A stretch of DNA of 64,000 bases from an uncultured bacterium (lineage in GTDB: Bacteria > Verrucomicrobiota > Kiritimatiellia > RFP12 > UBA1067): assembly GCA_902764415.1 (NCBI GenBank), contig CACWVU010000001.1, positions 65,133-129,132 on the forward strand, in the 5' to 3' direction. The position numbers and the translations under genes were made by a program. Every line of letters starts with the position of its first letter. The stretch's first letter is position 1. Shown in pieces: positions 684-39,978 of this stretch. The notes beneath the pieces were generated by a model, which saw only the letters and a list, made by a program, of their open reading frames with translations, made no database searches and was not told the DNA's origin.

Positions 684-909
684 AACTCCGATGGTTTGGG
701 CTCTCGCTACCGCTCCGCAGCTTCGCATCCAACAACCACAATCCATTGCCACTTGGGAGAGTTTTATAACTGGGGGCAAACCCCCAGACCCCCTGCGGCG
801 AAGCCGCAGATATAACCTATGGCCTGTATGGCTGTGTCAAATGAATGGTATGTGCGAAGCAAAGCACATTCAGCGGAGCGTTAGCGAGAGCGCACAGATC
901 GGAGTAGTT
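684..909. repeat. Palindromic repeat E, copy 1 (E1)
   Basis: Fills most of the 350-base gap between the first gene and the GxxExxY gene. The ends are inverted: AACTCCGAT at 684 and ATCGGAGTA near 898-906. Inside them are inverted arms CTCTCGCTACCGCTCCG and, at 871-890, the near-complement CGGAGCGTTAGCGAGAG. The centre holds two adjacent hairpins, CTGGGGG/CCCCCAG with loop CAAA, then CTGCGGC-GAA-GCCGCAG, followed by ATATAA. A second right-end-like stretch, CACAGATCGGAGTTAG, occurs at 961-976. No coding capacity is evident. Confidence 0.85.
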
Positions 910-1000
910 TATACCCCCCTGCGCGACACCCTGAACAGCGAGCCACGGTGGTGTGCTTACGCACAGATCGGAGTTAGTTGCCCAGCGACGCCGAAAAGTG

Positions 1001-1016
1001 TGGTATAATATGCGCA
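1001..1016 (+). promoter_or_regulatory. Extended -10 promoter of first GxxExxY gene, leaderless
   Basis: TGGTATAAT at 1001-1009 is a perfect extended -10. Its last base is 6 bases before the ATG at 1016, exactly where transcription should begin, so the mRNA is predicted to lack a leader. No matching -35 is seen. Confidence 0.75.
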
Positions 1017-1474
1017 TGATTCTCAGCAACGATCCGAAGGCATATGCGATTATGGGGTGCGCGATGCGCGTGCATTCCACTCTGGGCTATGGCTTTCTCG
1101 AGTCCGCTTACGGCGACGCTCTGGAAATCGAGTTCAAGAAGAACGGCATTCCGTACGTACGCGAGGACACCATAAGCATCTACTATGACGGGCAGCCACT
1201 GCCGACTAACTGGCGCGCGGACTTCACCTGCTTCGACCGCAGCTACATCGTTGAGCTGAAAGCCCTGAGGTCCATTACGAAGATCGAATGGGCGCAGGTA
1301 ATCCACTACATGCGGGCGACTCGTATCCCCTACGCCATGCTCCTCAACTTTGGGCGACCGCAGCTACAGTACGACACTTTTGATCTTGACAAGCTTCCAA
1401 TGGAAGCCATCCTTGACGCTGCGGCGCAGCCGCATCAAAAACCACCTCTTTCGACTTTTCAGAGTTTCCAGTGA
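1016..1474 (+). CDS. GxxExxY family protein (nuclease-like), copy 1
   Basis: A 152-residue protein. The family signature GFLESAY is at residues 26-32, and a PD-(D/E)xK-like nuclease core is visible as D69, then E80-L-K82 in YIVELKAL, followed by LLNFG near residue 110. The biochemical function of the family is not established; the D...ExK pattern suggests a nuclease fold. The start at 1016 is chosen because the -10 box places the transcript start there; an in-frame ATG at 1010 overlaps the -10 box and is less likely. Base composition is lower in GC than the neighbours. The gene lies alone between two copies of palindromic repeat E (684-909 and 1503-1767), an arrangement echoed at the second GxxExxY locus near 37.2 kb. 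Confidence 0.88.
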   Translation: MILSNDPKAYAIMGCAMRVHSTLGYGFLESAYGDALEIEFKKNGIPYVREDTISIYYDGQPLPTNWRADFTCFDRSYIVELKALRSITKIEWAQVIHYMRATRIPYAMLLNFGRPQLQYDTFDLDKLPMEAILDAAAQPHQKPPLSTFQSFQ

Positions 1475-1502
1475 AAAATGCAGCCAGATCGTGTTGGTTT
1501 GA

Positions 1503-1767
1503 AACTCCGATGGTTGGGGCTCTCACTACCGTTCCGCAGCTTCGCATCTGCCAACCTCAATCCAGTTTCGCTTCAGATTTTGCTCACACAGAGGCGCAGA
1601 GACACAGAGTTTTTTTTAACTGGGGCTTCGCCCCAGACCCCGTGAGAGCCCCCTGCGGCGAAGCCGCAGATATAAAACAAGTTCAGCATGGCCGTGGAAG
1701 ACGAATGCCGAGTGCGAAGCCCCGACCATTCTGCGGAGCGGTAGCGAGAGCCATACGGATCGGAGTT
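1503..1767. repeat. Palindromic repeat E, copy 2 (E2)
   Basis: Occupies the 343-base gap between the GxxExxY gene and dus. Ends are AACTCCGATGG (1503) and ATCGGAGTT (1759-1767). The arms are imperfect 20-base inverted repeats around CTACCGTTCCGCAG and CTGCGGAGCGGTAG. The core hairpins are CTGGGGC-TTC-GCCCCAG, a short CCCGTGAGAGCC insertion, then CTGCGGC-GAA-GCCGCAG and ATATAAAA. An octamer repeat (CACAGAGG, CGCAGAGA, CACAGAGT at 1587-1610) and eight T residues sit in its left half. Same orientation as E1 and E4. Confidence 0.85.
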
Positions 1768-1817
1768 TCCTATGCTATGCCGACGACGCCCCCACAATCT
1801 TATTTGAAAAATCTAAA

Positions 1818-13165: not shown

Positions 13166-13196
13166 GTGTGAGTGTTTATGTGAAGAGTGAGTAAAA

Positions 13197-13451
13197 AACT
13201 CCGATGGTTGGGGCTCCCGCTACCGCTCCGCAGCTTCGCCCATGACAACCCCACGTATGATTCTGCCGAAGCCAGGTTATTTAACTGGGGCTCCGCCCCA
13301 GACCCCCTGCGGCGAAGCCGCAGATATAAAACAAGGCATGTGCGGCCGTGGAAGACGAATGTCAGGCGCGAAGCATCGAGCATTCTGCGGAGCGGGACAG
13401 CCGAGCGAAGCGAGACAGCCGAAGGCCGCGAGAGCCACACGGATCGGAGTT
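13197..13451. repeat. Palindromic repeat E, copy 4 (E4)
   Basis: Ends AACTCCGATGG (13197) and ATCGGAGTT (13443-13451). The core hairpins are CTGGGGC-TCC-GCCCCAG, then CTGCGGC-GAA-GCCGCAG and ATATAAAA, as in E2 but with a different loop in the first. The right arm is interrupted after GCGGAGCGG by about 34 bases containing two ACAGCCGA copies before GAGAGCC resumes. The rest of the 505-base aspS-greA gap holds two divergent promoters and a 9-bp tandem repeat, and no gene. Confidence 0.85.
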
Positions 13452-36343: not shown

Positions 36344-37027
36344 TTGATCGGAAGAGTGATGGTGCCGCTGGCGGTGGTGGCGGCGGCGATGTCCGGGTGC
36401 TGGACGTTCAACGAGTCCGAGTATCCGGTGGAGGCGACGACCGCGGCGGCGACCAACCTCTCCGTGGCGGTGGTCGGCTACAAGGCGACGTTCACCGACT
36501 ACGAGCCGGTGACCGGATACTCCTCGGTGTATGTCCCCGGCTGGTACGGCTACCGCTACTATCACCCAGGCCACTTCGAGACCGTCGCCTCCACTGCCTA
36601 CGTGCCGCTCCGGCGCGAGTCCGACGCCTACCTGGTGCGGGCGAAGGAGCGGTTCGAGGGCGCCGGCTTCACCGTCGGCGCGGCGGTGCCGAAGGTGTCG
36701 GTGGAGGTGCAGTTCGCAGGGCCGTTCGACTCGGACGGCGACCTGGGCCGGGCGCTGCTGTGGTCAGTCGGGACGATCTTCTTCTGCGACTACTCCTCGC
36801 AGCGATGGACGGCGAAGCTGACGATCCGCGACAACACCGACGGCAGGCTGCTGCTGCGGCGCGAGTTCGAGCAGAAGTACGAGGCGAACGTGTTCTCGCC
36901 AATTCCGATCTTCGGGCCGGCGTCGTGCGACAAGACCAGCTCGGCGGCCATGCAGTGCTGGTGCCTCTCGGCGCTCACCGACCGCACCGTCGCCGCCGCC
37001 ACCGCCTTCCTTGCCGGAGGCAAGTGA
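36344..37027 (+). CDS. Putative lipoprotein
   Basis: A 227-residue protein with a lipoprotein signal ending in the lipobox AAMSGC (residues about 14-19). The mature part has a Tyr/Gly-rich stretch (YVPGWYGYRYYHPGHF) and a domain with YLVRAKERFEGAGF, IRDNTDGRLLLRREFEQ and a closing ALTDRTVAAATAF. It may be a DUF4136- or LptE-like outer-membrane lipoprotein, but I cannot assign a family. The TTG at 36344 is chosen because GGAGGGG lies seven bases upstream; ATG 36359 would also keep the signal. Confidence 0.65.
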   Translation: MIGRVMVPLAVVAAAMSGCWTFNESEYPVEATTAAATNLSVAVVGYKATFTDYEPVTGYSSVYVPGWYGYRYYHPGHFETVASTAYVPLRRESDAYLVRAKERFEGAGFTVGAAVPKVSVEVQFAGPFDSDGDLGRALLWSVGTIFFCDYSSQRWTAKLTIRDNTDGRLLLRREFEQKYEANVFSPIPIFGPASCDKTSSAAMQCWCLSALTDRTVAAATAFLAGGK

Positions 37028-37034
37028 AGTTATG

Positions 37035-37742
37035 TTTTCGTCGCAAAAGACGCAAATATGCGATCGAGACGCGATTGTCGTCGCCTCCCGCTTCGCGGGC
37101 GACAATCGGTCTCGCTCGCGGTAATGGGCTGGGTTTGCCGTATCGATGCTGGCGCAGTGTAAGATCAGCAATTATTGGGAATGAGGACATATGCATCCGC
37201 TGTATGAGCAGGCCAATAATCTGACCAAAGAGGTGATAGACGCTGCGATTGCAGTGCATAAGCATTTTGGCCCAGGGGTGTTGGAATCCATCTATGTTAA
37301 AAGCCTTGAGCAGGCGTTGAAGGTTGCAGGCCACAAGGTTGAGCGGGAGAAGACAGTGGAAATCTCCTATATGGGCGCCACATTCGAAGAAAAGCTTCGG
37401 TGCGATCTTCTTGTCGACGATTGCCTGGTTATCGAAGCCAAGTCGGTCGAAGCTTGTGATCTTCAGCGATTCCGAATGCAGTTGCTTTCGTACTTGAAGT
37501 TGCTCGATAAACCATTGGGATTGGTTATGAACTTCGGCGACGAGCATTTTGGAAGTCATGGGATTCGCCGCGTCATACTGAAAGGCGCTGACAAAGGCAA
37601 CGATTAAAAATGAAATCTAAACAGACTTTCAAATCATCAAAATGTCTCATAGGCCGCGGACGATTTCGATTGTCTCCCGCGTCAGCGGGAGACGACGACA
37701 ATCGGAAATCGGACGCAATATCTGCGTACTTTGCGACTAAAA
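37035..37742 (+). mobile_element. 708-bp element: GxxExxY gene between inverted terminal arms
   Basis: The left arm (37035-37121) and the reverse complement of the right arm (37655-37742) align end to end over about 87 bases at roughly 75-80% identity by eye: both begin TTTT-N-GTCGCAAA, continue ACGCA-N-ATAT, share CGATTGTCGTCG and CTCCCGC, and end CGCGG. Each arm also folds on itself, with CGATTGTC/GACAATCG outside CCCGC/GCGGG. The outer ends touch the neighbouring genes: the left end is 8 bases after a stop codon and the right end is 2 bases before the tex start. The only gene inside is GxxExxY copy 2. No transposase is present and no convincing target duplication was found. Confidence 0.75.
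37191..37607 (+). CDS. GxxExxY family protein (nuclease-like), copy 2
   Basis: A 138-residue protein with the signature GVLESIY at residues 29-35 and a nuclease-like core D71...E81-A-K83 (RCDLLVDDCLVIEAKSV), then LLSYLKLLDKPLGLVMNFG. The spacing D-(9 or 10)-E-x-K is shared with copy 1 at 1016 although the proteins differ widely elsewhere, so they are diverged paralogs rather than a recent duplication. AATGAGGACAT gives a modest ribosome binding site. Base composition is clearly poorer in GC than the neighbours, suggesting later arrival. It is the sole gene between the 87-bp inverted arms described for 37035-37742. Confidence 0.88.
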   Translation: MHPLYEQANNLTKEVIDAAIAVHKHFGPGVLESIYVKSLEQALKVAGHKVEREKTVEISYMGATFEEKLRCDLLVDDCLVIEAKSVEACDLQRFRMQLLSYLKLLDKPLGLVMNFGDEHFGSHGIRRVILKGADKGND

Positions 37743-37743
37743 C

Positions 37744-39977
<2,234 letters not shown>

Positions 39978-39978
<1 letters not shown>

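Follow-up and report, generated by a model that had tools for sequence, protein, structure and literature searches.

The window analysed here, a stretch of 64,000 nucleotides, contains a compact unit in which a single GxxExxY gene lies between long inverted arms, and this unit on balance probably represents a family of miniature mobile elements whose sole gene encodes a minimal Cas4/RecB-like PD-(D/E)XK nuclease acting on its own arms and on gene-less copies. Mobility of the units is well supported by sequence comparison between species, which revealed a fixed architecture, multi-copy arms, an excess of gene-less copies, an empty orthologous site, an in-place inversion, co-variation of arms and nuclease and conserved catalytic residues. 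We further infer that the nuclease drives this movement and that GxxExxY binds and cuts its arms. The unit and its borders are arranged in the window as follows.

37032..37745, no strand: whole unit, inverted arms and one gene, seen as an inverted match and absent at the orthologous junction in relatives
37032..37121, plus strand: left arm, comprising the outer repeat GTCGCAAAAGACGCA (37040-37054) and then a hairpin
37060..37119, plus strand: left-arm hairpin, with compensatory changes in the stem relative to arms of relatives
37191..37607, plus strand: GxxExxY gene, 138 aa, PF13366/TIGR04256, PD-(D/E)XK nuclease family
37654..37745, minus strand: right arm, comprising a hairpin and the outer repeat GTCGCAAAGTACGCA (37723-37737, minus strand)
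37656..37716, minus strand: right-arm hairpin, position read from the sequence
36344..37027, plus strand: lipoprotein-like gene bordering the insertion site on the left
37744..39978, plus strand: tex gene, right border, its ATG overlapping the end of the right arm

The arms match in three collinear inverted blocks, 37032-37059 with 37718-37745 (28 nt, 86% complementarity), 37059-37092 with 37684-37717 (34 nt, 79%) and 37094-37121 with 37654-37681 (28 nt, 79%), and the local alignment of the flanks scores 80, the best of 5000 shuffles reaching 28. When the whole window was scanned in 160-bp stretches at 80-bp steps, 480-640 bp apart, three placements scored at least 44, all at the 37032-37745 locus. 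Each arm also folds alone, with z values of -4.2 and -4.3 under RNA parameters and none of 200 shuffles as good. The only ORF of at least 80 aa wholly within the unit, 37191-37607, matches PF13366 (PDDEXK_3) at 104 bits (cut-off 22) and TIGR04256 at 110 bits (cut-off 35), and its GC content of 48.9% compares with 61.7% and 68.7% in the 5 kb on each side. On the left the unit abuts the stop codon of the lipoprotein-like gene (37027), whose product gave no match in a Pfam search and owes the label 'lipoprotein' to the first-pass annotation, and on the right the arm runs into the start codon of tex (37744). The unit as first described, namely inverted arms with a hairpin in each, a single nuclease-like gene of GC below its surroundings and a snug fit between two genes, is thus confirmed, the arms being about 90 bp each and reaching 3 bp beyond each end originally given.

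Comparison of relatives, with one genome per species, revealed the same junction without the unit. Thirty tex loci of the genus were examined among 37 places found, and five of them, the window's own included, have the lipoprotein gene upstream of tex. Three of the other four carry no insertion (L141 from G032, L143 and L145) and the fourth (L140 from G058) carries a different hairpin element, so that the unit is far from being present at this junction in all relatives, the situation that had been named as speaking against mobility. Differences from G032/G058 extend into the first ~80 bp of tex in this genome, which blurs the exact insertion sequence there. Right beside the insertion, the first ~25 codons of tex (window 37744-37830) are strongly unlike those of the nearest sisters, L140 and L141; the N-terminal 149 aa are 93% identical to the sisters, with nearly all differences, by eye, in these ~25 codons. 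Contig C17 carries an extra tandem hairpin copy that is lacking in G032, and G032 has another that is missing here; between C17 (L041 2460-3150) and G032 (L093) the gained or lost tandem element is a hairpin plus a ~15-bp spacer.

The window arms recur elsewhere in the 2.6 Mb assembly and in 4 of 57 relatives searched, rather than being found only here. Contig C31 contains three inverted pairs (286, 229 and 224 bp), each made of a left and a right arm without a GxxExxY gene, and contig C3 one further window-type arm. The sister G032 carries the first mnmG copy; G004 bears gene-less copies at a number of sites, of which three were read, together with a truncated unit on contig C58 (G004:C58); and G008 harbours a gene-less pair, a lone right arm and a complete unit with its gene. 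The gene in G008 shares 75.6% nucleotide and 90% protein identity with that of the window (dN 0.06; dS not computable, which we take as saturation), values that indicate purifying selection. The recurrence of gene-less arms and the empty junctions support the first-pass proposal of a minimal mobile unit, consisting of a gene and inverted arms and lacking any known transposase.

Two of the three pairs on C31 sit in frame inside mnmG, in a 787-aa frame, and across 14 aligned species two variable positions either carry the extra peptides, lack them or have other hairpin elements in their place; such elements therefore add peptide to a conserved housekeeping protein. In mnmG of sister genomes (L170 and L171), iteron hairpins TTTTAGCCGCAAAG...CTTTGCGGCTAAAA are translated in frame as the peptide AAKNAENAK..FASFAAK. 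Also inside mnmG are two TGTTCCACGTGGAACA palindromes (L009 3754-3769 and 4120-4135), which we take to resemble the parS site; dnaA- and dnaN-like frames, named by eye, lie downstream of them on L009, and contig C31 looks like an origin region.

Pairing within the arms was evaluated in 21 of 22 arms, after one mispaired match had been removed and one 3' half set by hand. In these, 93.2% of cells pair, against 20-48% when the partner is slid, and both sides have changed in 37 cells against 14.5 in shuffled data (sd 2.6; none of 500 reaches 37). Two of five covariation measures were no better than shuffles, namely double-change pairs (6 against 5.1) and further pair types (10 against 11.7), and pair 29-64 fails in 12 of the 21 arms. 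As the arm sequences are related, these counts are supportive and carry no probability; they are consistent with hairpin arms maintained as structure. The hairpin loops appear to accept further repeats: some have grown from 17 to ~170 nt (L009 11110-11333, L010 1369-1511 and the left arms of L046 and L050) and share a nested module, ..CTCGGCTATCCCCTCGCT..TTCGGCGGCTA.., which is also found in another species.

The general pattern emerged from the other GxxExxY genes of the window and its genome. A third gene, on contig C17, lies among AACACAAAG-type hairpins, and the window itself contains a second unit with a different arm family, represented by the following features.

684..1771, plus strand: second unit, in which large hairpin repeats of another arm family (684-908 and 1501-1771) flank a second GxxExxY gene
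1016..1474, plus strand: second GxxExxY gene, 152 aa
6014..6246, no strand: inverted pair of the second arm family, 233 bp, too short for the GxxExxY gene
13194..13229, plus strand: lone arm of the second family

Across genus and phylum, 77 distinct GxxExxY genes were retained from 90 HMM matches by keeping scores >60, dropping identical cores and requiring 300 bp or more of flank. Their flanks gave a median inverted-match score of 46 against 22 for flanks paired between loci, with 67 of 77 above the 95th percentile (33) and 33 of 77 above the 99th (47) of the between-locus pairs. A scan of a genome collection yielded at least 580 confirmed stretches, of which the best 80 were kept; these are titled Hydrogenedentota, Acidobacteria, Cyanobacteria, Planctomycetes, Chloroflexi, Proteobacteria, Bacteroidetes, Spirochaetes, Verrucomicrobia, methanogenic archaea and others, some phylum names being deduced from the genus or class in the record title. 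After exclusion of five for short flanks or N, the remaining 75 of these best 80 loci, mostly from other phyla, showed a median of 38 against 20 for 558 same-contig control ORFs, 58 exceeding the 95th and 48 the 99th percentile of the controls. Under a stricter control, flanks re-paired between loci, which share iteron words, 42 of the 75 still exceeded the 95th percentile (36). No significant inverted pair was detected in 10 of the 77 loci from genus and phylum and in 17 of the 75, and loci of Methanothrix (L249, score 17) and Stenomitos (L228, score 18) gave no inverted-arm signal.

The matching arm words are short direct repeats such as TTTAACCACAGAG-NN-CACAGAG-NN-CACAGAG, with CACGAAA, GACAGGATT, CGTGTAGAA or CGCGGAGA in other clades. 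The consensus of 131 arms consists of a T-tract, AACC and three 9-bp units NNCRCRRAG, ~35 bp in all; conservation ends ~8 bp outside and 27 bp inside the arm and there is no fourth unit, the three units having been demanded by the search pattern and the T-tract not. These counts, like those below of pairs, genomes and duplications, concern only the CRCRRAG-type iteron. In 752 kb around the 80 genes, 207 iteron arms were found against 0 after mononucleotide shuffling, and neighbouring arms within 1.3 kb on the 80 contigs formed 71 inward, 18 outward and 25 same-strand pairs. The inward pairs enclose GxxExxY in 35 cases, less than 150 bp in 31 and other contents in 5, which is the pattern of an autonomous element accompanied by gene-less miniatures. 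Among 119 inward pairs, direct repeats of at least 6 occurred in 12.6% against 4.9% of re-paired flanks and had no fixed length, as target-site duplications would.

The four-helix 23S_rRNA_IVP genes (PF05635) of the same phylum (L193-L222) also lie between inverted iterons, of different words (AGTGGC, GGGAGTC, TCAGC and GACTATG types), with a median of 36 against 21 for re-paired flanks at 29 of 30 loci, L198 having been left out after failing the open-frame check. These genes seemingly form a second family with the same arm architecture. Their sharing of that architecture with other words is one of several points favouring a selfish element that acts as RNA, like a 23S rRNA intervening sequence, whose arms would pair in the transcript, be cut by RNase III or the nuclease and be reinserted as RNA or cDNA. 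The strong folding of the arms as RNA with compensatory changes and the tolerance of in-frame copies inside mnmG agree with such a course, and PMC4990558 describes the Coxiella intervening sequence as an ORF between terminal inverted repeats. We consider it quite improbable, since the unit lies outside rRNA, the conserved iteron arm is just ~35 bp and there is no reverse transcriptase, the single gene being PF13366. Rfam gave no match in 36500-38300, rRNA families included, and one sub-threshold miRNA match.

Iteron arms follow the GxxExxY gene across genomes. The gene is present in 69 of 145 genomes of the phylum, and the pattern ACCRCRRAGNNCRCRRAGNNCRCRRAG, with one mismatch allowed, occurs 862 times in the 145, 855 of these in the 69 genomes with the gene, whereas the reversed control pattern occurs 4 times. 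Iterons are found in 50 of 69 genomes with GxxExxY against 3 of 76 without (p 4e-19), and within the 11 families showing both states none of 20000 permutations reached the observed association. Some of this co-occurrence is to be expected, since most of the genes bring two arms of their own; when two arms are deducted for each gene, an excess persists in 21 of 69 genomes, compared with any match at all in 3 of 76 (p 2e-5). Arms beyond two per gene number 615 in all, with 260 arms for 5 genes in G065 and 62 arms for 1 gene in G046. Nineteen of the 69 genomes lack the CRCRRAG pattern as searched, of which at least G141, G124, G091 and G136 have arms of other spacing or words (L109, L112, L114 and L135), and three genomes without the gene hold 7 iteron matches. 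That iteron-like words are merely common background and GxxExxY genes lie in repeat-rich intergenic DNA is highly improbable: the words are indeed abundant in some genomes, but the same-contig controls (median 20 against 38), the reversed pattern (4 against 862 matches), the inward orientation bias and the near absence of iterons from genomes without GxxExxY all argue otherwise.

The same genomes bear on the source of the movement. The double-hairpin arms resemble REPINs as described in PMC3116915, and the arms could be REP/REPIN-like hairpins moved in trans by a RAYT or other HUH (Y1) transposase, with GxxExxY as a captured passenger. Such enzymes are available, with four PF01797 matches in the genome of the window and Y1 genes in 102 of the 145 genomes. 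Among genomes with GxxExxY, however, Y1 makes no difference to whether iterons are present (45 of 62 with it against 5 of 7 without, p 1.0). GxxExxY itself remains a predictor in genomes that have Y1 (45 of 62 against 2 of 40) and in those that lack it (5 of 7 against 1 of 36), and on these stratified counts the Y1 transposase was rejected as mover. No arm or iteron of the kinds searched occurs in stretches of 2.2-5.0 kb around the four Y1 matches of the genome, three of which lie within 300 bp of a contig end, and capture of a passenger leaves the co-variation of arms and nuclease across phyla unexplained. As a whole, we regard this origin as unlikely. Two Y1-transposase genes cut by contig ends (at the end of L053 on C18 and the start of L054 on C5) share an upstream hairpin, GAACCTTAATGGA..TCCATTAAGGTTC. 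The four-helix IVP gene was likewise rejected as the origin of the CRCRRAG iterons, having no further effect when GxxExxY is accounted for (45 of 61 against 5 of 8, p 0.68). With L109 as query, GxxExxY was found in 8 of 72,556 plasmid records and 0 of 50,697 phages; horizontal vectors are therefore not evident, and this near absence suggests a mostly vertical, intragenomic spread.

Arm similarity climbs with nuclease identity. In 111 units, restricted to arm scores of 34-110, the Spearman coefficient is 0.36; it is 0.38 in the 71 units outside the genus and 0.24 in the 47 from the genome collection, with 0 of 999 permutations reaching the value in each case. Similar units in unrelated flanks are alike up to the arm ends (L062/L067, L072/L074 and L257/L258). 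Between L060 and L061, from two species, the flanks are collinear on one strand at 88-92% but enclose a 567-bp unit in opposite orientations, 94.5% identical, which may reflect recombination between the arms or reinsertion. Other pairs look vertical, with flanks shared on both sides (L115/L138) or downstream only (L087/L088).

Arms co-varying with the protein, as operators would, are also compatible with self-regulation by GxxExxY or with a restriction- or toxin-like module, whose gene-less pairs would be decayed forms and whose complete unit would spread by ordinary recombination and horizontal transfer; the truncated unit on G004:C58 fits such decay. We likewise hold this account improbable, because arms outnumber genes many-fold (260 to 5 in G065, 62 to 1 in G046), 31 of 36 gene-less inward pairs on the 80 contigs enclose less than 150 bp instead of graded gene remnants, and copies occur inside coding sequence.

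The GxxExxY protein, ~15 kDa, is strictly conserved at its putative active site. An alignment of 40 sequences, the window protein included, shows no variation at the E and Y of the motif or at residues D, E, K, Q, Y, N and F, with E32, D72 and K84 of the alignment among the invariant positions, and the catalytic E, D, E-x-K and Q-xxx-Y are intact in all 40, as in the PD-(D/E)XK superfamily. That a catalytic site is conserved in an element of this small size suggests that the element depends on nuclease activity. An AF2 model of the relative L109 (pLDDT 95.5) retrieved 4ic1 (SSO0001) as the best Foldseek match (E 7.6e-4) and the only one at <=0.001, with a VIA Z of 9.8 over 98 aligned residues at 3.2 Å; we take SSO0001 to be a Cas4. 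The next structural matches, SwaI (Z 8.3) and others at ~7.5-7.8 including Hjc, may reflect the common core only. Cas4 proteins have Fe-S cluster cysteines, and the 40-sequence alignment contains no invariant cysteine; GxxExxY is therefore no Cas4 proper, and membership was also rejected for want of a second gene in the unit, a CRISPR context being absent. Searches of PHROGs gave only two weak matches of unknown function (E 0.0089 and 0.35), and a sequence search of the PDB none below E 0.35.

Under the preferred reading of a nuclease acting on its own arms, the enzyme would recognise the inverted arms bounding its unit. These usually comprise a T-tract, AACC and three 9-bp iterons, and in the window family an outer repeat, GTCGCAAA..ACGCA, with a hairpin. 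It would cut or nick at the arms, and host repair or replication would then place the copied or moved unit at a new site, with the far commoner gene-less copies that bear the same arms mobilised in trans. The substrate could be the double-stranded iterons or an extruded, cruciform or single-stranded hairpin, and window-type hairpin arms might serve in single-stranded or cruciform form, as PMC3116915 proposes for REPINs.

A broader claim, to which we give about equal weight for and against, is that GxxExxY constitutes a new superfamily of transposition enzymes, a stand-alone PD-(D/E)XK nuclease without DDE, HUH, serine, tyrosine or Cas1 chemistry that propagates iteron-armed units and large numbers of gene-less hairpins in the chromosomes of many bacterial phyla and some archaea; if so, the four-helix 23S_rRNA_IVP genes would represent a parallel, second family with arms of the same design. 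A widespread family without an assigned role gains a testable function and a cognate DNA substrate, in the form of a very small nuclease whose specificity seemingly shifts from clade to clade, as the arm words differ. If true, the proposal would account for the tri-iteron repeats of CACAGAG/CGCAAAG type in these genomes and add an enzyme class to prokaryotic mobile elements. The first-pass annotation was right about the unit itself; the architecture across phyla, the gene-less copies tracking the nuclease and the co-variation of arms and nuclease lay beyond its view. It also knew of no described mobile element built on GxxExxY, and a search of the open-access literature likewise found neither mobility of GxxExxY nor these iterons described.

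Among known systems, RAYT and REPINs are comparable in that gene-less inverted pairs of palindromes or repeats form hairpins, occur in many copies and are thought to be spread in trans by one small chromosomal nuclease. The GxxExxY enzyme, however, is a PD-(D/E)XK protein and not a Y1/HUH transposase, its gene lies between its own arms, and in the typical arm a T-tract precedes three 9-bp iterons, which track GxxExxY and not Y1. Insertion sequences and MITEs share the combination of a gene-bearing unit with terminal inverted repeats and gene-less miniatures with the same ends, whereas GxxExxY units, ~450-700 bp long, have no DDE, serine or tyrosine recombinase (only PF13366 lies inside the window unit) and gave no consistent target duplication among the 119 inward pairs. 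Casposons and other self-synthesising transposons carry Cas4-like nucleases, and a Cas4-like PD-(D/E)XK nuclease between terminal inverted repeats is the likeness here, but the GxxExxY unit has no Cas1 integrase or polymerase, the nuclease being its only gene. The 23S rRNA intervening sequences (S23/IVP) likewise place a small ORF between inverted arms, and PF05635 genes are also iteron-armed; they differ in protein family and arm words, and the window unit sits between two protein genes with no rRNA match in 36500-38300. Rickettsia palindromic elements are palindromic and inserted in frame in genes, like the copies in mnmG, and we know of no nuclease-encoding version of them. A homing endonuclease element was rejected, as the arms occur at many unrelated sites and not at one conserved allelic target. 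For RAYT-REPIN, IS-MITE, casposon, intervening sequence and homing element alike, one or more of the defining features tested were lacking, and GxxExxY units therefore appear to be a previously undescribed kind of mobile element, built on the familiar logic of an autonomous element and its miniatures.
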